DNA of 59,245 nucleotides from a virus. Made by a program: the position numbers and the translations under genes. The stretch covers positions 1 through 59,245 of IMG/VR virus record IMGVR_UViG_3300021093_000083; one strand, given 5' to 3'. Below are positions 5,843 through 53,247 of the stretch, piece by piece. Positions within the stretch are counted from its first letter, which is position 1; each line of letters starts with the position of its first letter. The notes below the pieces were generated by a model. It was not told the DNA's origin and did no database searches. It saw only the letters and a program-made list of their open reading frames with translations.

Positions 5843-5986
5843 ATGGCAAAATCAAAAATTGGTTTGGTAAAGACTAGCTATACCCCTGGTAAACCGAAAA
5901 AAACTCGGCAAGGGCGTAGTCAAAATACACATCTTGGAGCATCTGCACGAAATGGTCGTAAAAAAAGGTATCGTGGACAAGGATGA
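5843..5986 (+). CDS. conserved small basic cyanophage protein, 47 aa
   Basis: ATG 5843 opens a 47-residue, very basic protein: MAKSKIGLVKTSYTPGKPKK at the N-terminus, a TRQGRSQNTHLGASARNGR middle and KKRYRGQG at the end. It begins two bases after the PAAR stop and its TGA overlaps the next ATG (ATGA, 5983-5986). I recognise this sequence type as a conserved small protein of T4-like cyanophages with no assigned function. With about a third Lys plus Arg and many Gly and Ser, it is probably unstructured and could bind nucleic acid or an acidic virion surface. Confidence 0.8.
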   Translation: MAKSKIGLVKTSYTPGKPKKTRQGRSQNTHLGASARNGRKKRYRGQG

Positions 5987-6435
5987 ACGAAATTGAAACT
6001 CATATTCATGAATGGATTAGAAAAATTTCTAAAGTTAGACCAGAATTAGGAAATTTTTCTGTCTGTCCCTTTGCTTCTGAAGCAAAATATAAGATTATTG
6101 AGTGCCAAGCTGAAGACATTGTGCTCATTTCAGGGTATGATGTCGTTTTTTATGTCATTGAAGACTACTTTGACCTACAAAGTGTTCAATTCTGGACCAA
6201 TTTTTATAACAAAATGTATCCAGAATTCATATTTTTGGAAGATCATGCTACTTCTAATAGTTTTATAAATGGAATACAGACAAACAATGGTAAATATAAC
6301 TTAATTTTGATGCAAGATAGACAAAAATTAAGAAAACATCGTCAAATTTTAAGAAATGCTGGGTATTACGCTCATTGGAATGATGAAATGATGAGAGAAA
6401 TCCTTGGAGAAGACATCAATTTGTTTGATAAATAG
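5983..6435 (+). CDS. conserved hypothetical protein, 150 aa
   Basis: The 150-residue protein starts at ATG 5983, overlapping the small basic gene. The N-terminus, with HEWIRKISKVRPELGNFSVCPFAS, faintly recalls the start of the DUF1415 family (a helix followed by a CPFA motif). The rest does not confirm this, so it is only a suggestion. The middle has a strand-rich region (DIVLISGYDVVFYVIEDYF) and the C-terminus is helical with an Arg/Lys-rich face (RQKLRKHRQILRNAGYYAHW). There is no signal peptide. It ends DK-stop, and that junction (GATAAATAG) doubles as a late-promoter-like motif for the following gene. The function is unknown. Confidence 0.75.
   Translation: MNEIETHIHEWIRKISKVRPELGNFSVCPFASEAKYKIIECQAEDIVLISGYDVVFYVIEDYFDLQSVQFWTNFYNKMYPEFIFLEDHATSNSFINGIQTNNGKYNLILMQDRQKLRKHRQILRNAGYYAHWNDEMMREILGEDINLFDK
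6427..6434 (+). promoter_or_regulatory. T4-type late promoter candidate GATAAATA
   Basis: GATAAATA overlaps the last codons and stop of the 150-aa gene. T4-like cyanophages use an NATAAATA late motif read with gp55-type sigma factor and gp33/gp45. Initiation would fall near 6441-6443, about 55 bases before the next ATG, giving a leader that contains the 6460-6484 hairpin. It would serve the gp25-gp6-gp7 block. The motif alone is frequent by chance in AT-rich DNA. Confidence 0.45.
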
Positions 6436-9222: not shown

Positions 9223-12200
9223 ATGGAAGAAAAACTTGTAACTTCATCTAATGTTGAATCTCTACTGCCAGATTTTATAAGAGAAGATTCTCCACAATTT
9301 ACAAACTTACTCAAGTATTACTACGAAAGTCTTGAGAGATCTTCGTATCCATTAGATGTCATTTATAATTTAACAAATTATTATGACTTAGATTCTTATA
9401 CTCCAGATAAGTTAATTTCTAAAACTACATTAATTAAAAATACAGAAAAAATTGATAGCGAGCTCGTAGTAAGTTCTACTAGAGGATTTCCAGAAGAAAA
9501 AGGTTCTATTCTAATTCAGAATGAAATCGTTCTTTATGATTATAGAACTCTTTCTCCACAAATTAAATTTATACCAAACATTACTCCAGAAAGAGTAAAG
9601 TCGAGATTTGTCGTCCTTGATGAAATTACAGATCAGTTCGATGGACAGCAAACTATCTTTGATCTAAAACTATTAGGCAAAAAAGTATTTGTTCCCACAT
9701 CTAATCATATTTTAATTAATTTAGGAGATAGTTATTTAACTCCTGGTGTTGATTATGTAACTAATAATGAAGATAATAGTGTTCCAGTTGGATCTGTGCA
9801 ATTCTTAACAGCTCCAGACGAATCAACATCAAATATTGCAAATTTATGCATCATAGAATTTTTACAAGGATATGTAACTGAAACTTCAAAAATTCTAGAT
9901 ACAGTAACTACAACTTCTCCCAAAAAAGTATTTGATTTAAAGTTTGAAGGATCTCCATATCAACCAATTGCAGATGGATATTTATTGGTGTTTAAAAATG
10001 GAAATCTTCTAAGTTTAAATAGTGAATATTCATTAACAGATACTAGAATTATTTTTAAGAATAATATTGTACCTTCAGACAATATTTTCTTCCTATCAAT
10101 TGAATCTCAAGTACCAAGAATAGGAACTGGAGCATCAGCTTATTCTATCATTGATCACAATGGACAATTAGATTCCATTGTTGTAGAAAATAATGGAAGT
10201 GGGTATGAGTATGATGAAACTCCAAAAGTAGAAATTTATGCTGAAACTGGAGATCTAGCAACAGCATATCCATTAATCAATGGAATTAGAAAAGTTTTAG
10301 TAGTAGAACCTGGATATGGTTATGATAAAGATAATCCTCCATCTCTTTCTTTCAATTTAACTAATGTAGGTAATATTAAAACATCTGTTACTGTAAAAAA
10401 TGAATCCGTTACAAAAGTAACAGTACTTAACTCTGGGTTTAACATAGATACTGAACCAAAAGTTACAGTCGTTGATCCAAAAATGCCTGTATTTGGAACT
10501 ATTATTATTGAAGAAACTGGCAATACAGGAACTGGATATACGATTACTGGAGTTGAAATTTTAGATGGTGGATTTGGACTAACAAATGGACCTAAACTAT
10601 ATGTTGATGCACCACCATTTGGCGAAGATAAAAAAGTTAATAGACCGCAAACTGCAACTATTGTTCCAATAATAGAAAATGGTCAAGTTGTTGATGTTGA
10701 TATTATTAATGGTGGTTTAGGATTTGATCCCGAAAATCCTCCAAGAGTTAAATCTATTAATTATAGAACTGCAGAAGTTTTAGATGTAAAAGTTACAGAT
10801 GGATCTATAACTGAAATTTCTTTACTCTCTGGTGGCCATGGGTATTTAGAAACCCCTACTGTATACATTGTAGATAACAGATATGATGCTGAGGGTGTAT
10901 ACATTGGTGGAATTGGTGCAAAAGCAAGAGCAATTTTATTTAATAATTCAATTACTGACATTATTATTGAGGACTTTGGTTCTGGATATTCAGATTCGAA
11001 TCCACCGTCTGTTTATATTTCATCACCAAAAAATGCTCAAGTAGTAGCTGAAATTGGAAAGGGACAAATAACTGGATTTGAAGTTGTAGAAAGAGGTTTT
11101 GGATACTTAAAAGCGTCTTTCATTAATTGTTCCAGAGGAACTTCTGGACTTAAAGGATTTGATAAAAATGAAAATACCATTTATGTAAATACTCTCCCAG
11201 AATGTCATCCTGCAGGAACGACAGTATATAATCAAAATTCAGAATATTTAAAGTACTTCCTAAGAAGAATAAAGAGTCAATTTCTTCCAGAATTTCCCGA
11301 TATTGATTTTGAACAGTATGATATTAGAAATTTAATCAAAAAGATTAAAAATTTCTATTCTATAAAAGGAACTAAATCTTCTATTGAATCATTCTTTCAA
11401 ACTATATTTGATGATGCTGTAGATATATCATACCCCAAAGATCAAATTGTAAGATCTTCAGATGCATTATGGTCTATAGATACTATAATGAGAGTGGAGC
11501 TTTTAAAGGGGAATATTGAAGATATACTGGGAAATATCATAATACAAAATGCTAGTGATGTAGATCCTGAAGTAATATATTCATCTTCTATTGTTGATGC
11601 ATATTCCATCCTACAAACATCGAAAAAAACTTTATATGAACTAGTTTTAGACACAAATTCATATGAAGGTGAGTTTAAAGTATCTTATACAACGAAACTT
11701 TCGGAAAGTATTGATAGACTCGATACAACTATTACGGTTGATTCTACTGTTGGTTGGCCAGAGACTAATGGATACTTTTATATCAGTAATGAACTGGTAA
11801 CTTATAAATCTAAGAGTTTAAATCAATTTTTTGAATGTACTAGAGCTGCAAATGGTGTATCTAGATTTGCATCTGGTGGAAGTAAAGTATCTACTAATTT
11901 TTATATTTACTATAATCAGGGACAACCTGATGAAGTAGTAATGAAAATTCTTGGAATTTCAAAAACAGAATCTACTGTTGTTGATAATCCAGCCAGTAAC
12001 TATTTGGAAGGTGATGTCCTTAGTCTTTCGGATCTCGGTACTGATGTTATTACAAACGTTCCTGGTAAAAACTTTCCACTCGTTAACAGTTGGATTTTTA
12101 ATGTTAAAAAAATTCAAGATGTTGTTTTAATTCAAGTAAAACAAAAAGCAGGAAAATATGTAGGTGAAGTTCTTTTAGACAAGAATCATAATTTAATAAG

Positions 12201-15200
12201 AGGTCAGAGTATTGAAATTTTTGGAGCTTCTCCAGCAATATATAATGGATCATTTACAGTGGAAAATCTTTCTTCAACTAATGCAAAAACTTTCGACTAT
12301 AATTTAAATATTACAGAAGATCAGTTTAATTCTTTAATATCTACATTTCCATCAGCTGTAGGTGATATTTACTTATCAATTCCACTAGAAAAAGGAAAGT
12401 CCGATTTTAGACCTATCGAAAGAATTATTTCAGAATCAACCGCTGATGTTCAAAATTGTTATTTAACGGATGATTATGTCTACGTTGCATCATCTGGAGT
12501 ACCATCTTATCCCATTGGATTGACCGGCGGGGAAAGGGGATTTTTGGGTAATTCATTGCTTCCAGGTAATCAAAGATATCTGAAAAAATTTCCAAAGCAA
12601 ACTCAAGTTGTATCTGAAAAAAAAGTAACAGAATATGGTCAGTTGGGGTTATTCTTAAATGGTGTTCCTCTTTACAATTATAAATCAGATAAAAAGATTA
12701 AATTTGGTAGTATATCACGAATAAATGTTTTAAATTCTGGTAGTGATTATGATGTTGAATTTGATCCTGAGATTAATGTTTATAAAACAATTCAAACAAT
12801 CACAGGTTTACAACAAATTAAAAATCCAGAGGGAGTATCTTTAAAACCAATAGTTAATGGTAGTCTCAGAGAAATTGTAGTTTTGAATGGTGGATCTGGA
12901 TATACTGAACCTCCAATCTTAACAGTATCTGGCGGGGGTGGAACTGGCGCGTTTGCTACAGCTGTTTTATCTGGAGGAAGAATTTCTAGAGTTGTTGTAG
13001 ACTCTCCTGGATCTGGTTATTTCCTAAAACCAGTAATCAACATTGTAGGTGGTGGTGCAGGATCTGGTGCTGTTTTAGATGCTGTAGTTAGAGGTCCAAT
13101 TAGTTCAATCAGGATTGATAATCCTGGACAAGGATTTCAAGAAAATCCAGATATTGAAATTACTACTGGATCTGGTGGTAGAGCTCAAGCTATCATTCTT
13201 AATGGAAAAGTTAGAAGTATTGGCGTTCTATCTGTAGGATCAAATTATACTACACCACCCTTGGTAGTAATTACAGACAAGAAGGGAAAAAATGCTTCAG
13301 CAAAAGCAATAATTTATACTTCGGGTGTTAATAAAGGATCAATAGAAAGAATTGAAGTATTGAATGGAGGATCTGGATATAATAAAGATACCGTAAAGGT
13401 AGAAATCATATCTATTGGTAATGGTGCTTCATTTAGTTCGGAAATTTTTGAATGGACATTTAATATCAATACTCAACTAGAAGGTAAATTTGATCCTAAG
13501 GATGGATATGTTTTTATTGGAAAAAATAATCAATTTGGTTCTGAGTATGCTCATACAAAAAATCCAAGATTTTTAAGATATCTATTGGGAGATAGTGTTT
13601 TATATAATGAAGTATTAAATACTATAACTGAACTTCCAATACAACAAGTAACCAGACACTCTCCTATTATTGGATGGGCATTTGATGGAAATCCTATTTA
13701 TGGTCCATATGGATTTGCAAATCCAGCGACAAACCCAGGAACAAATACAAATTTTATCCCAATGAAGAGTGGATGGAAGTTAAAAAATGATAGATTAAAT
13801 GGACCATCTACCACTACATATCCATTAGGTTCTTTTGTGGAAGATTATGAATATAGTTTAACTACTGGAGTAACTTTAGATAGATATAATGGAAGGTTCT
13901 GCAAAACTCCAGAGTTTCCAGAAGGAGTTTATGCATACTTTGTAACTATTACTGGTACAGTAAGTTCTATTGCAGAATTTCCATATGTAGTAGGAAATGA
14001 ATTTTATTCTGTACCAGATCAATTCAATTTCCAAGCAAATGCACTACAATCTAATTTACCGAAGGACGTAATTAGATATAGAACTCCATATGAATCTACA
14101 GATATTGATGTAGTTAGAAAATCTTCTGATATCAATTCTTCTCTATCAACAGAAGACAATTCATTTAATTTCATATTAGAAGATTCTCAAATTATTACTG
14201 GATATGACCAAGATGGAAATCCAATTTATACTACTTTAGAAGGTTATGATATTAATGATGATACTTTCATCACTGATGACGAATTAAATCCTATTGAATT
14301 TATTGAAGAGTCTGATATTGAAATTTATAATTATTTCCCAACTACAGAGGGAGACGCTAAAGTTGATATTAGAATTTCTAATGTAAATAAATTTGAAACT
14401 TCTATTTTAGAAGGATTTACCATTGAAAATGGAGGTCGAAACTTTAAGGTTAACGATACTCTGATTTTTGATACTAGTGAAAGTGGTGGTAATTTACCAT
14501 CAGCTAAAGTTTCATCAGTTACTGGAGAAAATGTTAGCGAACTAACTTTTGTATTTGAAGGTAAAAAACCATATGCTAAGTTAACAACAACTACTGATCA
14601 TGGATTAACATATAATGATAAATTTAAAGTTGAAACTCAACCAGAAGCTGAAAGTCAGATACAATATCAACCAAATTCATATAAAGTCAAAGTAGTCAAT
14701 GGTATTGAAAGAATAGATGTAATTAGTTTTGGTGCTGATTATGATCCAGAAACTCAAATTAACTATAGATTCTTCAACAGAGTTCTAGATAATATTAAAG
14801 ATGTTGAATTGAATTCAATTGTTGATGTTGGTGGATCTCTCAAATTTATAGAAGTTAAAAATTCTGGATCTATGGGTCTTGATGTTTCTGAAGTAAAACT
14901 TTCTCTTGATCCTCCAACTAATGTAACAAGAACTGTTTTTTATAACAAGAAAATTAAAAATGATAGAACGGCTGAATTAGAATTGCCAGCTGGATCACTG
15001 GAGAATCTTGAAAAGGATCAAATTATTTCAAATGATATAGTATTAGATACTAATGAAATACAGTCAGTAACATCTGCAAATATCAGTGGAAATAATTATA
15101 AAGTTACAATTACAACAGTAGATAGTAATTTAATTACATCTGGTAAAAAAGTTTTAGTATCGGGATTTAATAATTATACATCTTTAAATGGACTTAAAAC

Positions 15201-24200: not shown

Positions 24201-27200
24201 CCTTGAGGGATCTGAAGTCGTTAATGATAAAGTTGATATCTTTTCATATCAAAATCTCGAACAAGAAAGAGAGTATTCTGTAAATATATCTGCATATAAA
24301 ATTAACGACAATCTAAATCAACTGTCGGAGGATGCTCGAATAATTATAAGATTATTTGATTTTGAGTTTAATCAATATAAAGTAGATGAAACTTCAAATT
24401 ACGTTACATTGTCTAATGATGAATTGGGACCTTTCATTCTATCAAGCAACGCAAGTACAATTTCTCCATCTGATAGTAAGACAGATTTAGCTTATGATGT
24501 AAATGAAACTAATCTGTCAATTAGATCAATTTTTACATTTGATAGTTTCTTAAACTATAATCAATCAACACCATCTTTAGTAGAATTAAATGTTGGCGAT
24601 GTTTTAACATCAACAGTTAGTAAAGGACTTGCAACTGTAGTTTCTGTGAATGAAGTTACAAAAGAAGTTGAAGTTTCTATAAAATCAAATATTAATAATC
24701 CATTCATTAATGAAAATGAAACGCTTCAATCTAGAACAACTCAAGGTGAAATTATAGAAGGCAATCTAACAAACTTTGTTTTCTTTACAACTCAAAATGC
24801 AAAATATAAAGTAACTAAGATTAGATTCAAGAGTGATGATGACAATACATTTACTGATGACAATACTCCTTTACCAGTAGTTCTTACAAATGATCTATTA
24901 ATTTCTAAAACTTACGGAACAGCTAATAATCAAGATTCCTCTTCTATTTTCCTTTCCTTAAATGATTTAGTGGTAGGTGAAAAGAGCAGAGCTTCATGCA
25001 AGATTACTGAAATAACTAGAATTAATAACATCAATGAAGTTGAAATTAGTCCAGGCACACTATTTACTGGATATATCTTTAACAGAGTTAATAATCCAGA
25101 TAATCCAAACGTATCATTAACTGATATATCAAAATCTTATATTGTTCCATTTAATAAATTAGAATCTTATGGAAGTTTATATTACAAAGAAATAGAATCT
25201 TCTAGACTTTTATTAGATGATTATCTCTATAATGAGTCTATTGGAGATAGATTCAAGTCAATTCAACTTGATGTTGAATATGGCAATTCTTATGAATTTA
25301 ATGTAAACGATACATTAGAAATAGTCAGAGTATCTGTTGATGTCGAAGAAGCAGGTAGTAGATTTAGAGATGGTAGCAATCTAATAAAAGCAAACCGTCA
25401 AGAAATTGTTGACCGTGCAGCAGCTGAAATTGCTATTCAGTTCCCTGATTTCTCCTATCCTGGTGATCCAATAACAACTGCTGTATCTAGATTTAAAGAT
25501 GCTTATCGTCTAATCCAACTAAACAGAACAGCAATTATTGATACTGCTTTTGCTGCAATTGCTCCTGCGTTCCCAACTTTTGTTATCAACGCAACAAATA
25601 CAGATAAGTGTAAGAGAGATATTGGTATCTTCGTCGATTCTATATCTCTAGACATCGCTCAAGCTGGAGGAAACGTATATACTCGTAAATTTGTTCTTTC
25701 ATATTTTAATAGCAACACTCCTATTACTAATGGTCTTGTAGGAGAAGAAGCACAATCAAATGTTGCCTTTAATGCGGCTTGTGAAGAAATGAAAAAAGCA
25801 GTCACAAACCAATTAGCAATTACAGATCTAACCATCACTCCTGGTGCTGCTACCTTTGGCGGCGGCGGTGGCACTATCCCCAACAATAGCGTAAATGCTT
25901 GTGCTGATGTTCGTTCTGCACTTGATAGTTTAACACTTATCGTAACAACTCGTATTGCTGCTGGTAATATAACTGGTCTTCCTGCTGAATCAGTATCAAC
26001 TACTGTTCCAGCTGGAGAAGCTAAGTGTAAGAGAGATATTGGAATTATTGTTGATGCTGTAGTAGAAGATTTATTTAGAGGATCTAATGTCAATATAATT
26101 GAATCTACAAATGCTTATTTCAATAACGGTACTCCTATTAGTAATGGATTAGTAAATGAAGAAGCACAATCTGTAGTTGCTTTCAACAAAGCTCGTGATG
26201 TAATGAAACTGGCAATTAATAACCAGTTATTTGTTAAAGATTTAACAATCCAAGGAGATTATCAGGTTAGTTTCTCGAATACAGACCCTGATGGTTGTGC
26301 TAATGTCAGAGCAATGATTGATACTCTAATATCAATTATTACAACTACAATTACAGCAGCTGATCCAGATCTGTTGCCAGATCCAAACCCAGGAAGAGCC
26401 TTTGTTGCCGGCGAATTAGTAACAATTTCTGATGGTACTACAACATATGAGTCAAATGTATTAAGTTCAGATAATGTAAATTATATTATCTCACTTGAAA
26501 ATATATATCAAAATGATCAAATAGTAATAAATACTGAATTATTAGATCTTACTGGATATACTGTTTCTACTAATAGAGGAGCTTCCAATATAGAAATTGT
26601 AGCTCCAGTAAAAGATCTTGATGTTACGAGAACAACTGTAAAATCAAGAACATATGATATTACAACTAAGTTTACTTTAAATAGTATAACTGGACTTTCT
26701 GTTGGACTAACAGCAACTCAAGGATCTATAGTAGGTAAAGTAGTAGACATTATTGCAAATGATATTTATATCAATCATGCTTCATATGACACTGAAAATC
26801 ATTATGTGACTGGAAATATAGTATTTAATACCATACCTGCAATTACTAAATCTGTTACTGCTAACCCAGCAAATAGAGAAACTATTTACTATATTTCTAC
26901 ATCAGAAATTGTCCCTCAAATTAATAAGTATCAACCTACTCCAGGCACCATTCATTCGTATACTCCTTGGAATGATCTTTATGATGTTCTTGATAATAAT
27001 AGATCATTTATTATTGATTATGTTTATGAGTTAATAATCACTGAATTTGCATACTTATCTAATAAGAATACAATAACCATTGGAAGTTGTAAAAATGATC
27101 TTGCGTTAGTGTTAAACGCAATTATAAATGATATTAAACTTGGTGGAAACTATAATACAGTTCTTGCAACTAGACTCTATTTTGATTCTAATAATGAAGT

Positions 27201-30200
27201 GAACTTCCTTAAAGGTGAAGTTGAAGAATCTATCTGGTCTTACTCAAGATTAAAAGATTTCATCAAACTATCTTCTAGAAATTTTGAAGTAGTACATACT
27301 TGCAACCTAGTTAATACTCAAAATTATATTGTCGTTTCAGATCCTACTGGAATTGTTAGAGGAATGCTAGTGACTACGGATCAATTTAACGTAGATATCT
27401 ACGTTAAGTATGTCAGTGGAAATAAGGTATATCTAATGACAGAATCTTTCACTGATTACATATTAGTTGGAAACTATTCTGCACAAGAGGTAACATTTAA
27501 TTTTGATAAGTTTAAAGTTAATCCTCAGTTTGTATCCGTTCTTTATAATGTTCCTATACAATATTCTTCAGATGTAACTAGTTCTACCATTTTAGATCAA
27601 AATATTTCAGACCTTGTTGATGTATTATTAAATGCAATAAATCCAGATTCACTAAGAGTCTATAAGGATGCTGTTATTGAATTATTAGAAACATATGAGG
27701 ATGTTATCGATGATGTATATAATGATCTTAAGGTACAGTTTGATAACTTAACTATTCCAAATGATAATCTAGACAAGTGTCAAAGAGACATGAAGGTTGT
27801 TTCTGAGTCTGTATTTGACGATTTGAAGTTTGGTGGTAATGTTAATACAATTAGAACATCAGAACTCTATGTTAATGGCGGTTCTCTTTCTCATGTGGAA
27901 ACTGAACTTATTGAAACCGCATATGCTTTCTTCAAGTTAGAAATATCTTATAAAGAAATTATTAACAATAGTACAAACTATACTACTCAAGAAAAGACTG
28001 ATATCCAAGAAAGAATTACAGAGTTGTTCCAATTATTGATTAGTAAGATTACGAATGATGCTACTGGAACTGTTCAGGATGCTGCTGCTCAAATTGCAAG
28101 AAATGAGAGGTTTATTGTTGATGAAGCTTTCTTAATTACACTAGATACACAACCAACGGCATTCTCTCAATCTGAAATAACTCAGTTGTATTCATATGCT
28201 TATTCAGTAGTCAAATCTACAATTAAAAATTTACTTTTAGGAAGCAATGAATATGTATTAGATGCATTAACTGCTTTAGGTGCAACTTCTTCTTTCTATA
28301 GTAATTCATCTAAAAAATCTTTTGTTCAAAACTTCTTCACTAGAGTTATAAGTTTATCAAAACTATCAACGATTAATTTCTATATTAACGCTGCAGAGGA
28401 TCAATATGTGGTCCAAGAAAGTGTTCTTACATACAAAACAGACCTTACCATCTCAGTTGACCCTGCAGGATGGTCCTACTGTCAATCAGTACACAATACA
28501 TTAGATACTTTTGGTATTATAATCAATAATTATTGGACCAATCTATCTTTACCAGATGTGAGCATTGTTGAATTTACATATTTCCCTAAGAGATTGTATC
28601 CTGAAAATTACGTACAACGTCCTATAACCAGCTCTATTTCTGAAAATGATCTATGCATCTTAAAATCATCTACTTTAACTAAGACTGCTTTTGTAAATGC
28701 AATTGATTCTGGAATAACTAAAATTTATGATCTACAAAAACGATTTGATCTTGATGATGAAGATGGTACTATTGAAAAATCTAATCTTGTTGGTAGCTTT
28801 GTAAATACATCAATCTCAGTAACATTAAAAGATATAAATGATAATGGATCAGTAAATGTTTCTATTACTGGAAATGGATCTAATATTTCTGTTGGTCAAA
28901 CTTTCACTCAAGATAATGGTTTCTCTTCAATAATCGAATCGATTTATAACGTATACATTCTTAAGAATGTATACGGAAATTTCTATAAAAATAACTATAT
29001 CTTTGGAATAGATTCTGGTTCAACATCAAATTCTTATATTAGTTCATTTGAAAGAAATACAGCCGTTATAGAAAAATCAATTGGAGATAGACTGATCTTT
29101 GATAGTACATCTGTAGTAGGATCATTTACTTTATATGATTATGTTTATGTAAAAGATACTACATACGAATCTAATGTTGTTTACACTTATCAAGGATTTA
29201 ATGGTCAAAGAACTCAATTCCCTCTAATTGTAATATCTCCAACAGGAGACATTCAAGATTACTACCCATCAGTGGAAGATTCTCCAATAATTGTATCCAT
29301 TAATGGAGTCATTCAAGAATTTGATAATGACTATACAACGTCATCTAATTTTATAACTTTTGATAATCCTCCAACTAAGGACGATGAATGTCTAGCTGTT
29401 TACTATGGTAAGTGGAGAAAGATTGACAACATCTCTCCACAGTTTGATGGAATCACTCAAAGTTTTGGTATGGAAATCGGAGGATTGCCATTTGCTATTT
29501 CAGTTTTTGGTAATGCAACAAATATTATTGTCGATAGAAACTGTTTATTTACAGTAAACGGAGTAGTTCAAGTTCCTCAAGAAGGATTTACTGTAGATGG
29601 TTCTAGAATTAGATTTTCTTCTGCTCCAAAACCAGGATCCAGTTTTGTTGGTTATGTATATGTCGGTTCGGCTATTGACGTTGACTCTATTGAAGTTATT
29701 CCTCAAATTGAACCAACTGATATTATTAGATTAAATAAAGAGGATACAAATAGGATTGTTGCGACAGTCGATAGCTTATCTTCAGTTACAACATTTGAAT
29801 ACCCTGGAGAGAAGATTGGAAGAATTGCAGCTGGAACTGCAACTATAAGAACAGGCAAGATAATTGGAGCCTCTTTGACATCAGGTGGTTCTGGTTATAT
29901 TAGAAGACCAAAAATTAAAATCAATTCATCCAGTGGTGATGAAGCGAAATTGACAGCTCAACTTGGCGTATCAAATGTAGAAGTCATTAACGCTGGGTCT
30001 GGATATCTAAAACCATCTGTACAAGTAATTTCAACTACTGGAACTGGATTTACTGGAGAAATTTTATTTGAACCAGATTCAAATAATACTCAGAGGATCT
30101 CAGTTATTAAGATTATTAATAGTGGATTTGGATATTCATCAACAGATGAAGTTTCTATATCTAATGTTGGAAATCCAGAAATCCCAGTAGAATTTAAAGT

Positions 30201-32934
30201 CGTAGTAAATGAAGCTGGTGGTATTGAAAATATCTATCCAGTATTGATTGGTATTATCGAAATTAATGAAGGTGACTGGGATGAACAGTTATTTGATCAA
30301 TATACAGAAGACAACTTTAAGTTTAGAATTCGTGGAGCCACAAGTAAATCAGAGGCTGTATTTGTAGGTGGTGGAGAATCTGAAGCTAAGATTTTTGTTA
30401 AAGATATAACAGGTTCATTTGTTCCTGGAGAAAACATTAATATAGTTTCATTTGCAAATAATGTTTCTTTAGGAAAACTAACCTCTGTAGAGTCCTTCTA
30501 CTTAAACGTTGGTGGAAGCGGTTACAATCCTCTAAGATTAAAAGTTACTTATACTGGCGAGGGAACCATTCCTACAGGAGGATTCGTAGAAGTTGGAACT
30601 CAAATTCAATATCAATTTGATACATTCTCCAAACTAAGTGATAGTAATTTTATTATTAATATTGATAAGTCTTATTCTTATGTTGAAGGTAGAGATTTCC
30701 ATATTGGAGAAAAAATTGATGTATATGCAAGATCTAATGGAGTCAAAACTGGAACTGTCAAACATTTTGTAGTTGAATCGTGGAATCCAACTACGTTAAA
30801 ACTTACAGTATCAAAACCAACACCAATAAAAGTAGATATTGTTTTAAATGAAAATGGTTCGGTAACTAATGCTATTGTTATTAATAAAGGAAACAATTAC
30901 TATGATGTATTAAATTATGCAGTAACTCTTGAGGGACAAACGGAAACTGGATATGATGAAGCTTCATTTGAATTGTCAATAGCATCTGTAACAGATATTA
31001 TTGTTACTCCATATACAATTGGTAATGAGTCTTATGATGGATTTGGTAGAGATTACTCTACTTCTGATACTGTTTTAATACAACCAATTGATGAATTTGG
31101 TGAAACCGAAAATGTTGTTGGATCTGGATCTGGAGCAACAATAAAATTAAATGTCAATGCATTTGGTGGAGAAATAGAATCTATTACGATACCAGATAAT
31201 TTAAGAGGATCTCAATACTATACAACTCCTATTATTGTTACCAAAGGTGGTGGAGGATATGGTGTTAAAGCATTAGCATCTATTGAAAATAATTTAGTTT
31301 CTGATGTGGAGTTTGTTTCTAGAGGTGTTGGATTTGAATCTGTACCAGAAATTATTTTCGCTCAAAAAGTACTTCTAACTAAGGAAAGTAAGATTAGAAC
31401 ATATCTAACATCTAAGACTGATAAATTAACTGGATTGGTCAAGAATGTAATTGAAGATGATACTCAAATTTTTGTTTCAAGTACAGGTGGATTTACTTCT
31501 AGTGGAACTTTACTTCTTGGTAAAGAAGTTATTAGTTATAGTGGTAAAACAGCAAATAGTTTTACTGGAATTACAAGAGGTATTAACTTTAACTATGATC
31601 AAAAACTTAGATTATCTTCTGGATTCTGGAACTTCTCAATTAATGACATATTACCAATCATCAGAGTTAATTCTGAAGAGAGTGGAAGTATCACTACAAA
31701 TATAAGAGTGTATTCCTTTGAACCACAAAGTCAAGATGAAGTAATTCCACCATTTTTATTCATTAAGTATGTTATTGATTCACTGGCATTTATTGATGCT
31801 GGCGTTGCTCGTAGCGAGGGTACTCCATCATATGTTGGAGGACTATTTAACACATCACCAAATGGAAATTATATTATTAATGCTCAATCATTACATCTAA
31901 ATAATGTTGATGGATTATCTGAAGGAGATATAGTTGAACAAACTATAGTGGTAGATCAAAATACAACTATAGTCATAAGTGGATCAATTGTTAGAATTAT
32001 TAAAGCTTCTAATAGAATAGTTGTAGAATTAGATGATGATAATACTGAATTTGTTCTTGGACAACTCATTATTAACCCCGATGAACCAGATAAGACAAAG
32101 ACTAGATTTATTACAACTCCTTTTGGAGGAATTGCTGTAGAAAAAATGGGTATCAATAGATTTGATACTACTAAAATCTCTGATGGTCCTACAGATACAG
32201 ATTTGGATTTAATCAAAGATAAGACTTATGTTATCTGTCAATCTGATTCTTCTGTATGTAATTCTCTATATCCACAACTCAAAGGATATTATCTATTAGA
32301 TCCATCAATTATTGAGGAATCAGGTTTCTTAATCACTGATTCTATCTATCCAAGAAATCTAACTGTAGGTGGCGCCCAACCATATGGTTATATATCAACT
32401 GTAGAAAAAGGTCCAAACAATAAAGGATTGACATACAGTGGCGTTAACAATACAAGTAGTGATTATAATGGAGAGATTGCATTAGATGGTGGATATCCAT
32501 TCTCATTATATGGCGTTGAAGAAATTGATCAATTAGGAAATACAATTGCTATCGGCGATAAACTTAGAGATGGAAATGGAAACATTGTTACTGTAGAAAC
32601 TATCTCTGCAGTTAATACAGGAGAAGTTCATCAATCTCAAGTAACAATAAAAGTAAACAAACCAACAACCTACGGTGAATTATTAATTGGACGTAAAGTG
32701 CAGGGTGCTGTTAGTGGATTCTCTGGAATTATTAAGTCTGTAAATATCCCGACAGGAGAAAATTATATCGAACTTGTTCTTGTAAATCTTCTTTATAATG
32801 ATCCATACTACGGATTTATTATTCAATATCAACAAGGTGAGATCATAAATATTTACAATGGTAATGTTTTGATAGTTGAAAATAAGTATACAATTCAATC
32901 TTATGAGTTCAATAACGTATTATTAAGTCAATAA
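9223..32934 (+). CDS. gp7: giant mosaic baseplate wedge protein at the gp7 position, 7,903 aa
   Basis: One uninterrupted frame of 23.7 kb lies exactly between gp6 and gp8, where T4 has gp7 (1,032 aa). Residues 14-57 (LLPDFIREDSPQFTNLLKYY and onward) and about 656-780 (IKNFYSIKGTKSSIESFF, then YPKDQIVRSSDALW) look like the conserved cyanophage gp7 core. The rest is modular: beta repeats with a GSGY-x(3)-P pattern in six clusters, a YHYH domain (about 1480-1576), a seven-bladed RCC1 propeller with an insert (about 2021-2536), a second propeller-like stretch (about 2968-3440), and helical CKRD repeats (about 5382-6296). It is probably an elongated peripheral baseplate or host-contact protein. 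The purine run AAAAAGG lies only two bases before the start, unusually close. No frameshift or intein is apparent. Confidence 0.8.
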   Translation: MEEKLVTSSNVESLLPDFIREDSPQFTNLLKYYYESLERSSYPLDVIYNLTNYYDLDSYTPDKLISKTTLIKNTEKIDSELVVSSTRGFPEEKGSILIQNEIVLYDYRTLSPQIKFIPNITPERVKSRFVVLDEITDQFDGQQTIFDLKLLGKKVFVPTSNHILINLGDSYLTPGVDYVTNNEDNSVPVGSVQFLTAPDESTSNIANLCIIEFLQGYVTETSKILDTVTTTSPKKVFDLKFEGSPYQPIADGYLLVFKNGNLLSLNSEYSLTDTRIIFKNNIVPSDNIFFLSIESQVPRIGTGASAYSIIDHNGQLDSIVVENNGSGYEYDETPKVEIYAETGDLATAYPLINGIRKVLVVEPGYGYDKDNPPSLSFNLTNVGNIKTSVTVKNESVTKVTVLNSGFNIDTEPKVTVVDPKMPVFGTIIIEETGNTGTGYTITGVEILDGGFGLTNGPKLYVDAPPFGEDKKVNRPQTATIVPIIENGQVVDVDIINGGLGFDPENPPRVKSINYRTAEVLDVKVTDGSITEISLLSGGHGYLETPTVYIVDNRYDAEGVYIGGIGAKARAILFNNSITDIIIEDFGSGYSDSNPPSVYISSPKNAQVVAEIGKGQITGFEVVERGFGYLKASFINCSRGTSGLKGFDKNENTIYVNTLPECHPAGTTVYNQNSEYLKYFLRRIKSQFLPEFPDIDFEQYDIRNLIKKIKNFYSIKGTKSSIESFFQTIFDDAVDISYPKDQIVRSSDALWSIDTIMRVELLKGNIEDILGNIIIQNASDVDPEVIYSSSIVDAYSILQTSKKTLYELVLDTNSYEGEFKVSYTTKLSESIDRLDTTITVDSTVGWPETNGYFYISNELVTYKSKSLNQFFECTRAANGVSRFASGGSKVSTNFYIYYNQGQPDEVVMKILGISKTESTVVDNPASNYLEGDVLSLSDLGTDVITNVPGKNFPLVNSWIFNVKKIQDVVLIQVKQKAGKYVGEVLLDKNHNLIRGQSIEIFGASPAIYNGSFTVENLSSTNAKTFDYNLNITEDQFNSLISTFPSAVGDIYLSIPLEKGKSDFRPIERIISESTADVQNCYLTDDYVYVASSGVPSYPIGLTGGERGFLGNSLLPGNQRYLKKFPKQTQVVSEKKVTEYGQLGLFLNGVPLYNYKSDKKIKFGSISRINVLNSGSDYDVEFDPEINVYKTIQTITGLQQIKNPEGVSLKPIVNGSLREIVVLNGGSGYTEPPILTVSGGGGTGAFATAVLSGGRISRVVVDSPGSGYFLKPVINIVGGGAGSGAVLDAVVRGPISSIRIDNPGQGFQENPDIEITTGSGGRAQAIILNGKVRSIGVLSVGSNYTTPPLVVITDKKGKNASAKAIIYTSGVNKGSIERIEVLNGGSGYNKDTVKVEIISIGNGASFSSEIFEWTFNINTQLEGKFDPKDGYVFIGKNNQFGSEYAHTKNPRFLRYLLGDSVLYNEVLNTITELPIQQVTRHSPIIGWAFDGNPIYGPYGFANPATNPGTNTNFIPMKSGWKLKNDRLNGPSTTTYPLGSFVEDYEYSLTTGVTLDRYNGRFCKTPEFPEGVYAYFVTITGTVSSIAEFPYVVGNEFYSVPDQFNFQANALQSNLPKDVIRYRTPYESTDIDVVRKSSDINSSLSTEDNSFNFILEDSQIITGYDQDGNPIYTTLEGYDINDDTFITDDELNPIEFIEESDIEIYNYFPTTEGDAKVDIRISNVNKFETSILEGFTIENGGRNFKVNDTLIFDTSESGGNLPSAKVSSVTGENVSELTFVFEGKKPYAKLTTTTDHGLTYNDKFKVETQPEAESQIQYQPNSYKVKVVNGIERIDVISFGADYDPETQINYRFFNRVLDNIKDVELNSIVDVGGSLKFIEVKNSGSMGLDVSEVKLSLDPPTNVTRTVFYNKKIKNDRTAELELPAGSLENLEKDQIISNDIVLDTNEIQSVTSANISGNNYKVTITTVDSNLITSGKKVLVSGFNNYTSLNGLKTVTDTTGNSFSYTVTQAGLPSTIEVVSKDWDQISSSQSGAHTLAIKQDKSLWAWGQNSFGQLGTGNRTRRKVPFKVSSSQWIAISANGNKSLAIKYVDNNSYGTLWAWGQNSFGELGINSTDPYKTSPVQIGTSNWKKVSSGVNHALAIMSDGTLWAWGRNSFGQLGIGSTTDYSYPVQVSTDTNWTEVHAGSSISAAINSSGKLFVWGDSRNSCLGLGKIASIRILNPGRSGTFTAESTVNFELSGASGKVVSWNPTTRLLILKNFTYTNVPTRDEKLYIGSDVSTSVNYGRLRSIVIHELDDFGSSLEFILTQGTGVFSTGETITSSRGVTATVVSYDSSTKKMKISNRSGEFIRNDIVTGNSSGAKQTFNRYTPQSGTRILVPTLINDSTWTKASSSNRSTFAIKDNGTLWSWGDNFFGNLGTGDLFDRNIPTQIGTSTTWSDVSAGSYHVLGINDSDLYAWGRASSYELGNGSLDTKLAPVEITGITDIGIIEAGNSSSFIIKDMSGTDAPLLVFGNATQGRLGNNKIKGLVSTPTEIQSISVILNPESTIVESSIFAINSTNSIVEVSNIVNSSGQYPNNSEYLDDDIIEVVKDNDELIIDQKITQVLTNNVLPFSSSIRLNNLNNVEIGKLIRVVSEEKSFNATVKDINSVLTLTEVPSSTEIYAGNKITFPVNNNATPPVAVVREFLVTGVSKKGSVTLSISQYTGNDTNIVTATVSSTAGISVGDELYIFGSTADTNLNGTWNIIAVPNSTTFKFGITSPLATGSYLSGLGTAIKSISGTTTLNVSLDMPVSEYQNTSTINGNLDAQVAVTIPSYSLFDEDMIVVSDIDSQSNSIFVRTLITGKSKTTSNPISLSDVSISMYSVTLEGDQNEYDFGNYNSTFFVENTFSNQQSVKYIASNTSTPINGLTSGNIYYIKNVTRYSFSLSAEVDDVETITVTTIPSTSIHRFRSVIRRKIQNSSYAQNKINYTTTSIDKNENLYAFGSTFDSQGTKCITFHKFDNSGELKFESYLLIPEAERGSGITQGTFQITASKSFIKNNDLYLLVETVYRQISSTLVKDLIIIKYDISSEQPLKLSTSVLLSSGSYAISPIGIFVEEFENREINIISNILNHPGSEDKESILLLKVTEDQPTNINTLSFTSTNTSVKLNNALTNSNTIFLSNTFYENQPVVYTSFLPIGGLESNTVYYIINNDNEKFKLAKTPSGAPVQLTSLGDNLLNAHTISPVLIPSYDISLQRRISFDNELSIDDIAYQQISVSAKSFDVNESNFVISSTSNNKPYLIKINKSTFSVDLIKEVSGITSSLNKHFIKFNQFNEIYFAFNKQIVRLDINGNVIKQVTIPSYTSNHEVSSLFFDYFDNVIVILNDNSGNNSKVVVNYFDYKLDYLKTQTISESDVNILVSSSVLDLYNSIYFTITESTNNFYSYIYRTYKELQNNTSNDITMSNSTSLITESKLDNFTISFTDNSNIIGRQGTQFSNFSITDINIFDTDCPKSYQLSSTFADIFSEKVSTKGSKPVFDITLNKKYYIEKDAIQFISPVVTYQLNKTVNYPIGSTVVFTDNEILSNTYSGVILDKGIQTLTVTEFSSSNPSLIQNILDNSNVKLKNENPFYNSKINNTFVNSEKIEAKLQISNITADSVFLPGDTVEFLTPATGNTFVYRGKATILFYNETTNVISFKNVFDDGISESTRVRITKTIGGENTVTAFAEFLYATDWDYVDKFEFEIPSEYEDDYIFESDNITNGSIVSIKVVNSGTDYTVAPSVIVQNQPGVNGSGLIAIAILNANGGVDRILVENGGAKFTKTPNIILLGGDGQGATAKVTRMRFVSEVYTIQVIDREQNLDLTSSTSYDDVELGDVITQTSTSASGIVVSKNRDLIRVKLSNQSRFDTSAVSISGVRTESTYSATNVGITSVSPCVFFSGESTTMKSVLDEYDGNYVNQFYPQLTVNSNDIISISRLYGVSKINLITRLFEYVYQISGEDLVHEDKIFIKTTDDHNLRENSLASLILPPTYSQINLVDQILSENEFIFRLYNIDLNNLPHNKFNSSTSELYYKTPSFNMVYGHSYRFDVSDFSNTGTLLNFSRDDSNRVVYTFNNVVRNNIVPGQVGSFVDFVVESNAGQLSYYFNEANSDGNNFVLPDSTISLRETPYNGTFRVHRVLNDTQLLYPLPYKPECDAFVLSGNENTTKYLSYSETSSGSISEISIFNNGGYFKVLPRVSEILCPRKIEKIEILNGGTEYEPGIYRDVPISGDGVGGLVDITVTPEIIINDLDEEIITGRITQAVVINPGERYTEATINIVDIPGILGSASNGSGGQLQVVIPPPGTGSSVLPYSEKVGSIRKLSNLNVGFDYTHDYTLKPQIKFPISLQLVNAKVISEILIDDPGFGYTSTPIILIEGGGGSGAAAVATVKNNRVSGIELVSAGSGYFSEPNIIIQSKIPYVVNLDLNLIQFKVPHGIPNASTIKLRADVVDGNNNVILPIVNYPGGMNNLIDPDNSVTGAYQTTLSLSAIVGESNGLLPNQLRIAINKNEALLNNYLNFITTGSPTQFLLTEVFGAKARSVLKSSQFLGNEVINQLESQIVNGVEQEVITCVSKVLPNSGWISGPNILRLNVLEGEFGIGKKVVGLSSESSGIINKIISASGFGEIGSTSTIDGKFYEETGKLSSISQRLQSEYYQNFAYLIKTTTPSEDWRNLVLDNLHPIGFSLFSEYSYETNSSLPKLKASTAFSRDISVDAAQRRGSRIFSPGYVEDVLNLNEVSVVGKKLITSENIITSFVEKIVNISDNFDGATTTFDLQVKRLITNLDGSTTEVIDAVRSNERFLMIFLNNTLQSPDSYVFSNGQITFDEAPSARLVSKSRNVKFTNLYPPVGKFVQDEKLYVVRVKEFNIDGINIWQQTVIIQSSTNPNIKIGDTVKQSDINGVITEIGVVFENSIYTVTLVVVFTTTDETIISPERDLKVFYNNEDLIGTTFDVTYVSTNQIADLRPFKFDILEGSEVVNDKVDIFSYQNLEQEREYSVNISAYKINDNLNQLSEDARIIIRLFDFEFNQYKVDETSNYVTLSNDELGPFILSSNASTISPSDSKTDLAYDVNETNLSIRSIFTFDSFLNYNQSTPSLVELNVGDVLTSTVSKGLATVVSVNEVTKEVEVSIKSNINNPFINENETLQSRTTQGEIIEGNLTNFVFFTTQNAKYKVTKIRFKSDDDNTFTDDNTPLPVVLTNDLLISKTYGTANNQDSSSIFLSLNDLVVGEKSRASCKITEITRINNINEVEISPGTLFTGYIFNRVNNPDNPNVSLTDISKSYIVPFNKLESYGSLYYKEIESSRLLLDDYLYNESIGDRFKSIQLDVEYGNSYEFNVNDTLEIVRVSVDVEEAGSRFRDGSNLIKANRQEIVDRAAAEIAIQFPDFSYPGDPITTAVSRFKDAYRLIQLNRTAIIDTAFAAIAPAFPTFVINATNTDKCKRDIGIFVDSISLDIAQAGGNVYTRKFVLSYFNSNTPITNGLVGEEAQSNVAFNAACEEMKKAVTNQLAITDLTITPGAATFGGGGGTIPNNSVNACADVRSALDSLTLIVTTRIAAGNITGLPAESVSTTVPAGEAKCKRDIGIIVDAVVEDLFRGSNVNIIESTNAYFNNGTPISNGLVNEEAQSVVAFNKARDVMKLAINNQLFVKDLTIQGDYQVSFSNTDPDGCANVRAMIDTLISIITTTITAADPDLLPDPNPGRAFVAGELVTISDGTTTYESNVLSSDNVNYIISLENIYQNDQIVINTELLDLTGYTVSTNRGASNIEIVAPVKDLDVTRTTVKSRTYDITTKFTLNSITGLSVGLTATQGSIVGKVVDIIANDIYINHASYDTENHYVTGNIVFNTIPAITKSVTANPANRETIYYISTSEIVPQINKYQPTPGTIHSYTPWNDLYDVLDNNRSFIIDYVYELIITEFAYLSNKNTITIGSCKNDLALVLNAIINDIKLGGNYNTVLATRLYFDSNNEVNFLKGEVEESIWSYSRLKDFIKLSSRNFEVVHTCNLVNTQNYIVVSDPTGIVRGMLVTTDQFNVDIYVKYVSGNKVYLMTESFTDYILVGNYSAQEVTFNFDKFKVNPQFVSVLYNVPIQYSSDVTSSTILDQNISDLVDVLLNAINPDSLRVYKDAVIELLETYEDVIDDVYNDLKVQFDNLTIPNDNLDKCQRDMKVVSESVFDDLKFGGNVNTIRTSELYVNGGSLSHVETELIETAYAFFKLEISYKEIINNSTNYTTQEKTDIQERITELFQLLISKITNDATGTVQDAAAQIARNERFIVDEAFLITLDTQPTAFSQSEITQLYSYAYSVVKSTIKNLLLGSNEYVLDALTALGATSSFYSNSSKKSFVQNFFTRVISLSKLSTINFYINAAEDQYVVQESVLTYKTDLTISVDPAGWSYCQSVHNTLDTFGIIINNYWTNLSLPDVSIVEFTYFPKRLYPENYVQRPITSSISENDLCILKSSTLTKTAFVNAIDSGITKIYDLQKRFDLDDEDGTIEKSNLVGSFVNTSISVTLKDINDNGSVNVSITGNGSNISVGQTFTQDNGFSSIIESIYNVYILKNVYGNFYKNNYIFGIDSGSTSNSYISSFERNTAVIEKSIGDRLIFDSTSVVGSFTLYDYVYVKDTTYESNVVYTYQGFNGQRTQFPLIVISPTGDIQDYYPSVEDSPIIVSINGVIQEFDNDYTTSSNFITFDNPPTKDDECLAVYYGKWRKIDNISPQFDGITQSFGMEIGGLPFAISVFGNATNIIVDRNCLFTVNGVVQVPQEGFTVDGSRIRFSSAPKPGSSFVGYVYVGSAIDVDSIEVIPQIEPTDIIRLNKEDTNRIVATVDSLSSVTTFEYPGEKIGRIAAGTATIRTGKIIGASLTSGGSGYIRRPKIKINSSSGDEAKLTAQLGVSNVEVINAGSGYLKPSVQVISTTGTGFTGEILFEPDSNNTQRISVIKIINSGFGYSSTDEVSISNVGNPEIPVEFKVVVNEAGGIENIYPVLIGIIEINEGDWDEQLFDQYTEDNFKFRIRGATSKSEAVFVGGGESEAKIFVKDITGSFVPGENINIVSFANNVSLGKLTSVESFYLNVGGSGYNPLRLKVTYTGEGTIPTGGFVEVGTQIQYQFDTFSKLSDSNFIINIDKSYSYVEGRDFHIGEKIDVYARSNGVKTGTVKHFVVESWNPTTLKLTVSKPTPIKVDIVLNENGSVTNAIVINKGNNYYDVLNYAVTLEGQTETGYDEASFELSIASVTDIIVTPYTIGNESYDGFGRDYSTSDTVLIQPIDEFGETENVVGSGSGATIKLNVNAFGGEIESITIPDNLRGSQYYTTPIIVTKGGGGYGVKALASIENNLVSDVEFVSRGVGFESVPEIIFAQKVLLTKESKIRTYLTSKTDKLTGLVKNVIEDDTQIFVSSTGGFTSSGTLLLGKEVISYSGKTANSFTGITRGINFNYDQKLRLSSGFWNFSINDILPIIRVNSEESGSITTNIRVYSFEPQSQDEVIPPFLFIKYVIDSLAFIDAGVARSEGTPSYVGGLFNTSPNGNYIINAQSLHLNNVDGLSEGDIVEQTIVVDQNTTIVISGSIVRIIKASNRIVVELDDDNTEFVLGQLIINPDEPDKTKTRFITTPFGGIAVEKMGINRFDTTKISDGPTDTDLDLIKDKTYVICQSDSSVCNSLYPQLKGYYLLDPSIIEESGFLITDSIYPRNLTVGGAQPYGYISTVEKGPNNKGLTYSGVNNTSSDYNGEIALDGGYPFSLYGVEEIDQLGNTIAIGDKLRDGNGNIVTVETISAVNTGEVHQSQVTIKVNKPTTYGELLIGRKVQGAVSGFSGIIKSVNIPTGENYIELVLVNLLYNDPYYGFIIQYQQGEIINIYNGNVLIVENKYTIQSYEFNNVLLSQ
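10180..11115 (+). repeat. beta-repeat cluster A in giant protein
   Basis: About eight degenerate repeats of roughly 35-45 residues, each with a GxGY or GFG turn, a P-x-V-x-[IV] strand and an [IV]-x-x-[IV]-x-[IV]-x-[ND]-G-G strand (for example NNGSGYEYDETPKVEI, EDFGSGYSDSNPPSVYI). The same repeat recurs in five other places in this protein, in gp8 and in the 4,004-aa protein. Confidence 0.75.
12700..13440 (+). repeat. beta-repeat cluster B (best-conserved copies)
   Basis: Five or more tandem repeats of about 33-36 residues. Units such as GGSGYTEPPILTVSGGGGTG, GSGYFLKPVINIVGGGAGSG and GGSGYNKDTVKVEI share GSGY-x(2,3)-P-x-[IV]-x-[IV], a G-rich turn, an alanine strand, then I-x-x-[IV]-x-[IV]-x-x-x-G. 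They immediately precede the YHYH domain. Confidence 0.8.
13660..13950 (+). other. YHYH-type domain inside the giant protein
   Basis: Residues about 1480-1576 contain GWAFDGNPIYGPYG near the start and LDRYNGRF followed by TPEFPEGVYAYFVT near the end. This is the hallmark pattern of the YHYH family: an alternating Asp-Gly-x-Pro-Ile-Tyr-Gly-Pro motif, then Asn-Gly-Arg-Phe and a Pro-Glu-(Tyr/Phe)-Pro-x-Gly-x-Tyr-Tyr/Ala strand. YHYH domains occur in secreted and surface proteins of marine bacteria and in cyanophage structural proteins. A role in surface contact is inferred. Confidence 0.75.
15283..16830 (+). other. RCC1-type seven-bladed propeller, interrupted
   Basis: Seven copies of the RCC1 signature are visible in order: LWAWGQNSFGQLGTG, LWAWGQNSFGELGIN, LWAWGRNSFGQLGIG, LFVWGDSRNSCLGLG, LWSWGDNFFGNLGTG, LYAWGRASSYELGNG and LLVFGNATQGRLGNN. 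Each is preceded by an (H/S)xLAI-type strand and followed by a P-x-x-[IV] strand. Seven is the number needed for a closed RCC1 propeller. Between blades four and five, 165 residues (15856-16350) are inserted in the loop after LGLG. Confidence 0.85.
15856..16350 (+). other. insert within the RCC1 propeller: two SWNP-type modules
   Basis: The insert carries two tandem copies of a small strand-rich module. The first has SGKVVSWNPTTRLLIL; the second has GTGVFSTGETITSS, then ATVVSYDSSTKKMKISNRSG and a GNSSGAKQTF end. The second is clearly similar to residues about 191-254 of gp14 in this window and more distantly to a part of gp8. It appears to be a transferable module lodged in a propeller loop. 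Confidence 0.7.
18124..19540 (+). other. second propeller-like region
   Basis: Residues about 2968-3440 alternate short strands with phrases typical of NHL/SBBP-like propellers, such as SIDKNENLYAFGSTFDSQG, FIKNNDLYLLVETVY, FNEIYFAFNKQIVRLDINGN and YFDNVIVILNDNSGN. A GLESNTVYYIINNDNEKFKL module interrupts it near 18640-18895. No single family motif is strict, so the propeller assignment is a prediction from the strand pattern. Confidence 0.45.
20455..20705 (+). repeat. beta-repeat cluster C
   Basis: Two repeats of the GSGY type (NSGTDYTVAPSVIVQNQPG and ENGGAKFTKTPNIILLGGDG) with the I-x-x-I-x-[IV] strand between them. They match clusters A and B in pattern but are more divergent. Confidence 0.65.
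21890..22540 (+). repeat. beta-repeat cluster D
   Basis: Four repeats, including NGGTEYEPGIYRDVPISGDG, NPGERYTEATINIV, DPGFGYTSTPIILIEGGGG and SAGSGYFSEPNIII. The first unit closely parallels the unit in gp8 at 33610-33680 (SGSGYNNGVYENIPINGDGK), linking the two genes. Confidence 0.75.
25366..28110 (+). repeat. helical CKRD repeats, four copies
   Basis: Four divergent copies of a helical unit, anchored by DKCKRDIGIFVDSI (25603), AKCKRDIGIIVDAV (about 26020), GSCKNDLALVLNAI (about 27085) and DKCQRDMKVVSESV (about 27775). Each is followed by a GGN-x-(N/Y)T-x(5)-YF-x-N turn and a helix with E-E-x-x-x-(A/W). A helix of the NR-x-x-I-(I/V)-D type precedes most of them. Spacing varies because linkers are inserted. 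The repeat type is familiar from cyanophage structural proteins. The function is unknown. Confidence 0.7.
29860..30250 (+). repeat. beta-repeat cluster E
   Basis: Three repeats (SGGSGYIRRPKIKINSSSG, NAGSGYLKPSVQVISTTG, NSGFGYSSTDEVSISNVG) matching the GSGY-type unit of clusters A-D. They follow two modules with the pattern NG-x-x-Q-x-F-D or NGVVQVPQEGF, which are repeated earlier near 9640, 9905 and 23570. Confidence 0.7.
31130..31345 (+). repeat. beta-repeat cluster F
   Basis: Two repeats (LRGSQYYTTPIIVTKGGGGYG and SRGVGFESVPEIIFAQ) with GSGATIKL before them, matching the same unit. It is followed by a GGFTSSGTLLLGKEVISYS module also seen near 9480 and 11725 and in the 4,004-aa protein near 45190. 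Confidence 0.65.
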
Positions 32935-53219: not shown

Positions 53220-53247
53220 AAAACTTAAAGGGGGATAGGGAACTCTT

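Follow-up and report, generated by a model that had tools for sequence, protein, structure and literature searches.

The baseplate wedge protein gp7 of phage T4 (5IV5; 9F4A) is 1,032 amino acids long and is encoded between gp6 and gp8. It carries a DFYxxKG motif followed by domain V, and the Pfam family Gp7_5th spans residues 766-861 of T4-type gp7. Proteins found in the gp6-gp8 slot of the Kyanoviridae form a series that runs from 896 amino acids in Melnitz and 1,016 in HTVC008M, through 3,007 (S-SSM7), 3,274 (Syn1), 3,411 (S-RIM32), 3,884 (S-CAM9), 4,458 (MED4-213), 5,422 (S-CREM1) and 5,512 (S-H38), to the large proteins of Syn9 (6,076), S-SSM5 (6,171), S-ShM2 (6,198), S-RIM2 (6,378) and P-SSM4 (7,312, labelled 'gp7'). 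The S-SSM5 representative carries the label T4-GC969, and T4-GC969 was found by mass spectrometry in virions of S-SM1, although its location within the virion was not given (PMC3037559).

Phycobiliproteins (PF00502), such as C-phycocyanin and phycoerythrin beta, have a fold composed of helices A-H, a Cys84 and Asp87 motif and a further cysteine near position 153/155. The T-type bilin lyase CpeT (PF06206) acts on Cys-165 of beta-phycoerythrin, and phage CpeT binds phycoerythrobilin in vitro. In cyanophages, CpeT has so far been seen as the product of an auxiliary metabolic gene that acts on host pigment proteins. The residue on which T-type lyases (CpcT/CpeT) act is Cys-153 in beta subunits (PMC10452541). 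No proposal for a virion target of phage CpeT was found in the literature searched, and no earlier report of phage phycobiliprotein-like domains was found in the open-access papers covered by that search.

The window, meaning the whole 59-kb stretch of DNA analysed here, is a linear IMG/VR record and hence a genome fragment. In a gp6 tree it is the sister of the S-SSM5/Syn9/S-CREM1 clade of the Kyanoviridae (support 100/100). The giant frame described next, its parts and the flanking gp6 and gp8 are all on the plus strand. A single open frame at 9223..32934 encodes a 7,903-amino acid predicted baseplate wedge protein of the Kyanoviridae gp7 type, kin to phrog_701 and T4-GC969. It has no internal stop codons, and the chance of an open frame this long at 31% GC is about 10^-291. 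The frame lies between gp6 (7119..9197, phrog_219) and gp8 (32960..34477, phrog_438), and the latter has a glycine-rich module in common with the giant. The computed mass of the product is 868.4 kDa. Thus, the first-pass annotation was correct in describing a single 23.7-kb frame between these two genes, with a product near 0.87 MDa that is more than seven times the length of T4 gp7.

An intact orthologue of 8,055 amino acids is present in an independent contig (IMGVR_UViG_3300011268_000916), with about 92% identity across most of its length. The dN/dS ratio between the two is 0.11-0.56 in all 400-codon blocks, and the orthologue is under purifying selection. In the first 400 codons of the giant (window 9223-10422), dS relative to this protein is raised to 0.42 while dN is low, which might possibly reflect either recombination or a selected synonymous signal.

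The 7,903-residue protein is among the largest known phage tail proteins. Nevertheless, it is near the top of the size series given above, as one of the larger representatives of a known family in which many cyanomyovirus orthologues have 5,400-6,400 amino acids. The rarity of size implied by the first-pass annotation is therefore not supported, given the P-SSM4 protein and these many orthologues, and sheer size is nothing new among cyanophages. Compared with the phrog_701 giants examined, the window protein is the longest except for its 8,055-residue relative and an 8,077-residue frame with repeats in another contig (G002).

The similarity to T4 gp7 is confined to a small part of the protein. 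There is no match between T4 gp7 and the window giant by tblastn or phmmer, and profiles were required to detect one. Residues 704-736 (11332..11430) carry the motif IKNFYSIKGTKSSIESFFQTIFDD, which hhalign aligns with residues 727-759 of T4-type gp7 over 33 columns (P=1.6e-6, prob 90). When a profile of this core was compared with 177,635 PDB sequences, gp7 was the top match (E=0.0079). Directly behind the motif is a predicted beta domain resembling gp7 domain V (residues ~747-920, 11461..11982). A model of residues 616-1125, for which the pLDDT is only 61.7, placed gp7 at rank 1 of 350,542 chains in Foldseek (E=1.3e-3), and the same model was superposed on gp7 residues 760-851, which constitute domain V, with Z scores of 9.4 and 9.1. 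Unrelated beta domains, namely those of UBA6 and riboflavin synthase, also appear in the VIA and Foldseek lists with similar Z, and so the fold match rests on its colinearity with the sequence motif. With hhalign, no match was found for the other domains of gp7 (the helical domain, domain VI and others), and most of the giant lies outside the modelled part. The short gp7-like proteins of Melnitz and HTVC008M on their own match gp7 weakly (hhalign prob 7). The motif-then-domain-V order and the location between gp6 and gp8 are as in T4, but the window protein is seven times longer and has no detected similarity to the other gp7 domains. From the profile alignments and the structure model, kinship with gp7 appears to be limited to about residues 700-920. 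Accordingly, the gp7-like core segments proposed by the first-pass annotation are represented by this motif and domain, the only part of gp7 that was identified.

Kinship with the phrog_701 family is far more extensive. Conserved N-terminal, central and C-terminal blocks of this family occur in order in the window giant, and its likeness to phrog_701, T4-GC969/GC397 and P-SSM4 gp7 extends to genomic position, a YHYH domain, helical repeats and these three blocks at 34-39% identity. The N-terminal block (residues 1-1915, 9223..14967) has 36-39% identity to cyanophage giants and includes the YHYH domain (residues 1442-1578, 13546..13956; PF14240, E=5.7e-25). It is followed by a lineage-specific stretch, at about residues 1915-3955, that has no listed blastp match in the other giants. 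This stretch holds a set of RCC1-type repeats (residues 2013-2527, 15259..16803; PF00415, E=5.7e-52), which also match one another, and it constitutes an insert compared with the phrog_701 giants. In the central block (residues 3955-4939, 21085..24039) the large cyanophage giants are 34-39% identical to the window protein, and the third block (residues 6629-6936, 29107..30030) corresponds by blastp to the C-terminus of those proteins.

Other large giants stop just past this third block, whereas the window giant runs on into a domain (residues 7177-7839, 30751..32739) that is homologous by blastp to a separate protein, variously designated GC399, S-CREM1_166 or phrog_708. The E-values for the best two of S-SSM5 GC399, S-CREM1_166 and S-H38_94 are about 1e-38 to 1e-39. 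On this basis, the last ~720 residues are a fusion with a protein that is encoded separately elsewhere. In addition, the gp9 and GC399 genes that are present in the loci of phrog_701 giants are absent between the window giant and gp8. A search of the window for the gp9 N-terminal motif found no match, and gp9 is gone from its usual place. The simplest reading of these absences is deletion plus fusion.

An arrangement in which two genes found separately elsewhere occupy one frame is also what an assembly artefact could produce, and the first-pass annotation had raised this concern. However, the identical fusion is present in the independent contig with 92% identity, and a third contig from a third data set (L009) has 100% identity to the last 903 residues of the window giant within an open frame of 2,484 codons. 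Because both carry the same junction, an assembly fusion can for practical purposes be dismissed, and we consider an artefact to be exceedingly improbable. The 7,903-residue frame is real.

When slices of the giant were compared with one another, G-S-G-Y beta repeats, RCC1 repeats and helical repeats were found to recur, unlike in a whole-protein self-BLAST, which gave no matches. Copies of some of these modules are also present in gp8, gp14 and a 4,004-amino acid protein. These results bear out the recurrence of module types within the giant and its neighbours that had been proposed from the first reading, and the view that the protein grew by duplication and insertion of modules is likewise supported for this modular wedge protein of gp7 type. 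One common module links residues 2304-2363 of the giant with residues 188-249 of gp14 (56926-57822), which are 42% identical. Sharing of modules may explain why odd labels occur, for instance 'head closure Hc2' for the gp7-like protein of HTVC008M. The 4,004-residue protein is encoded directly after gp8 (window 34501-46515) and belongs to phrog_358, whose profile length is 2,056. It too is enlarged, since the gp8-adjacent genes of Syn9 and S-RIM2 encode about 2,390-2,400 amino acids. Elsewhere in the window are two fibre-like proteins of 2,053 and 950 amino acids with short repeats (47058-56100; GNTSIAGTLGVTGN; TEGTNLYYTDERVDDRV) and a 229-residue protein (2323-3012) that by eye resembles a 2OG-Fe(II) oxygenase.

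The block architecture of the giant, in which variable stretches separate the conserved blocks, would also be expected if the chain were translated and then cut into several virion proteins, such that no 0.87-MDa chain is present in particles. We regard this as unlikely. The family keeps single frames of 3,000-8,055 amino acids, and no protease gene was recognised at the window locus, although the S-CREM1 and S-H38 giants adjoin annotated peptidases.

The most informative features, which were absent from the first-pass annotation, are the C-terminal GC399/phrog_708 fusion and a set of helical repeats that resemble phycobiliproteins. The repeats form an array at residues 5380-6430 with units of ~148 amino acids, of which there are five main copies and one fragment. 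The fragment is a partial unit at residues 5380-5415 (25360..25467; repeat HMM i-E 2.8e-9). It is followed by a repeat at residues 5423-5570 (25489..25932) with the sequence CKRD at 5463 and a second-site cysteine at 5560, and by another at residues 5592-5703 (25996..26331) with CKRD at 5602 and the second cysteine at 5692. The next two repeats, at residues 5916-6047 (26968..27363) and 6146-6283 (27658..28071), have CKND at 5956 and CQRD at 6186, respectively, and the second-site cysteine is absent from both. The last, at residues 6283-6430 (28069..28512), is degenerate, having lost the first cysteine while a cysteine is present at 6420.

A Pfam scan of the giant gives only a sub-threshold match to PF00502. 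With a repeat HMM, there are 42 distinct copies across the cyanophage loci examined, and an alignment profile (A1) was made from 27 repeats. When this profile was compared with 177,635 PDB sequences there were 139 matches, of which the 60 listed are without exception phycobiliproteins or near relatives of them, with a best E of 1.4e-5. In these alignments the C-x-x-D motif of the repeats falls on phycobiliprotein Cys84 and Asp87. Taken singly, 13 of the 27 repeats match PF00502, and any other family is matched by at most one repeat. Comparison by hhalign with host proteins taken from cyanobacterial genomes gives P=1.9e-7 for CpcA and P=3.7e-6 for CpcB, versus P=0.065 for the best of 20 column shuffles. 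An AlphaFold2 model of residues 5376-5740, built from 23 sequences, has a pLDDT of 84.9 and a pTM of 0.85. All entries listed by Foldseek for this model are phycobiliproteins or close kin, the kin being 8u0f, a 'bacterial fluorescent protein', with probabilities of 0.99-1.00 but E-values of only 0.05-0.18. The same is true of all 50 entries listed by VIA-align (Z 15.3-17.1), where in many rows the fit is about 2.1 A over 134-141 residues and model residues of about 43-204 lie on phycobiliprotein residues 31-172/177.

Two observations might favour an ordinary enlarged gp7 in which these repeats are unrelated helical bundles that match phycobiliproteins by chance or convergence. The Foldseek E-values alone fall short of significance, and identity to phycobiliproteins is low, at 12-19%. 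However, phycobiliproteins alone are found in the listed profile, Foldseek and VIA matches, they are the sole recurrent Pfam family, and the shuffle controls are negative. We therefore consider unrelated bundles to be very improbable. Homology is well supported because the sequence profile, Pfam, hhalign and predicted fold agree, and the helical repeats of the giant are in all probability homologues of phycobiliproteins, with a predicted fold of helices A-H that is common to both (Z about 16). The repeats differ from phycobiliproteins in that they are tandem units in a phage structural protein, the N-terminal X/Y helices are outside the repeat profile, and Arg86 is variable. They are known here from sequence and predicted fold.

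Cysteine is rare in the giant, with only 28 among 7,903 residues. Among the repeats of the A1 alignment, 45 of the 56 cysteines are located in two columns, namely the C-x-x-D column (26 of 27) and a 'DCADV' column (19 of 23). Alignment to phycocyanin Cys84 places the first column at phycobiliprotein position 84, with Asp87 also matched. Arg86 is present in at least 90% of the repeats of the window's subfamily but is variable elsewhere, where the motif is C-x-x-D. The second column lies where the last helix begins, and the end-points of the VIA alignment (204 to 172) put it at about beta-Cys153. A second hhalign register also places it at beta-153/155, through a short alignment that lacks significance (P=0.27). 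These alignments and the model suggest that the two cysteine columns are at or near bilin sites 84 and 153/155. Both cysteines are present in two of the five main repeats of the window. In the phycobiliprotein fold the two bilin cysteine sites sit apart. A disulfide within one repeat domain is therefore unlikely, and a bond between the two conserved cysteines is disfavoured by the modelled fold.

A search of 50,697 phage records finds the repeats in cyanophages and, apart from these, only in a single marine virus record. They are not always located in the gp6-gp8 protein. The gp6-gp8 giants of Syn1 and S-RIM32 have none, and in these phages the repeats reside in two separate fibre proteins (L013/L018 versus L002-L006). 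The repeats thus shift from one protein to another. There are about 21 phycobiliprotein-like profile matches in the 8,077-residue frame of G002 (IMGVR_UViG_3300008107_000003, 176.7 kb; frame at about 135353-145627), and 25 over two frames in G004. Compared with window positions 25,300-28,500, the relative (L010) is longer by 163 amino acids around residues 5454-5608. Its dS reaches 0.56-0.67 in residues 5201-6000, while 0.1-0.2 is usual for the other blocks, and the array is thus a hot spot where recombination or changes in copy number occur.

The distribution of the repeats among isolate phage genomes follows that of CpeT, which was searched for as PF06206. In a first set of 14 isolates, 10 have repeats, and at first pass CpeT was found in nine of these 10 and in none of the other four. 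The exception, S-ShM2, was overturned as a genome with repeats and no CpeT by a weak in-frame match (23 bits versus a cut-off of 21) at a similar genome position. In a second set of 10 isolates, which were picked before the outcome was known, P-HM1, P-RSM4, S-CAM7 and S-PM2 have both features and the other six have neither. Overall, CpeT is present in 14 of 14 genomes with repeats and in none of the 10 without, even at E-values up to 10 (naive Fisher p=5e-7). Control genes are spread differently, with plastocyanin in 7 of 14 versus 5 of 10 genomes and PsbA/D in 13 of 14 versus 7 of 10. CpeT is also present in each of seven large contigs selected because they contain repeats. There is no link between the repeats and bilin reductase (PF05996), since P-SSM4 and MED4-213 have both and S-SSM7 has the reductase without repeats. 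No S-type lyase CpeS (PF09367) was found in the second genome set.

In the gp6 tree, which includes 23 of the 24 genomes, repeats and CpeT change four times and always jointly, and P-SSM2, which has neither, is the sister of S-CAM7, which has both. A phylogenetic test falls short of significance because the supported pairs that are fully independent number only two, and about four evolutionary changes underlie the co-occurrence. Irrespective of the tree, CpeT lies upstream of a fibre gene with repeats, at a distance of 155-1,788 bp, at all seven loci examined (Syn1, S-RIM32, S-PM2, G003, G004, G006 and G008). In the window's own clade it is far from the giant, at near 15 kb in several genomes. 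No CpeT was recognised in the 59-kb window and none was matched in its 73-kb relative, both of which are fragments.

We lean slightly towards an explanation in which a Kyanoviridae (cyanomyovirus-like) wedge protein with a small gp7 core at about residues 700-920 has been enlarged by the insertion of glycine-rich beta repeats, YHYH, RCC1 and helical repeats, and by C-terminal fusion with a separately encoded protein, and in which the phycobiliprotein-like repeats are loaded by CpeT. In the infected cyanobacterium, phage-encoded CpeT would attach host- or phage-made bilins to the repeat cysteines, chiefly at the beta-153/155 position, and the baseplate or fibre would leave the cell bearing pigment. 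Taken by itself, this loading of the repeats, and hence a pigmented baseplate or fibre, appears to us evenly balanced. Some phages with repeats infect Prochlorococcus, in which phycobilisomes are not intact (PMC3037559), and this counts against a pigment. Perhaps the phycobiliprotein fold has simply been reused, so that the repeats serve as bilin-free rigid spacers or fibre units whose cysteines are for disulfides or packing. The repeats are indeed tandem, vary in copy number (as in the relative) and reside in large structural proteins, Arg86 is not universal, and several window repeats lack one cysteine. Nevertheless, cysteine is otherwise rare and yet is gathered in two columns, the presence of CpeT matches that of the repeats exactly in 24 genomes, and CpeT adjoins repeat genes. 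Purely structural reuse is thus a real possibility, though one that we judge distinctly short of probable. Loading of the repeats by CpeT, the explanation that we favour, could provide a pigment for stability, photoprotection, light-dependent adsorption or light response, or receptor contact.

Two things are new here, namely repeats that resemble phycobiliproteins and the exact agreement between their presence and that of CpeT across the sampled genomes. Light-dependent adsorption has been reported for several marine cyanomyoviruses (PMC2984593), and pigmented virion repeats would be a physical candidate for it. The specific link between the two is a hypothesis that we consider improbable, whereas the broader proposal, that baseplate or fibre proteins of cyanomyoviruses are chromoproteins that receive bilins through the phage's own CpeT and form a light-absorbing element possibly behind such adsorption, is tentative and only somewhat less than even. 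Phage CpeT has so far been assumed to serve host antennae, and a substrate in the virion would be a concrete alternative, open to testing with the cultured isolates S-PM2, Syn1, Syn9 and S-RIM2. What bilin-synthesis genes do for phages has been termed a mystery (PMC3037559). If the proposal is true, a virus structural protein would consist partly of phycobiliprotein domains and would be tied to a lyase gene that has for long been classed as 'auxiliary metabolism', which would explain why cyanophages keep cpeT and why some keep genes for bilin synthesis.
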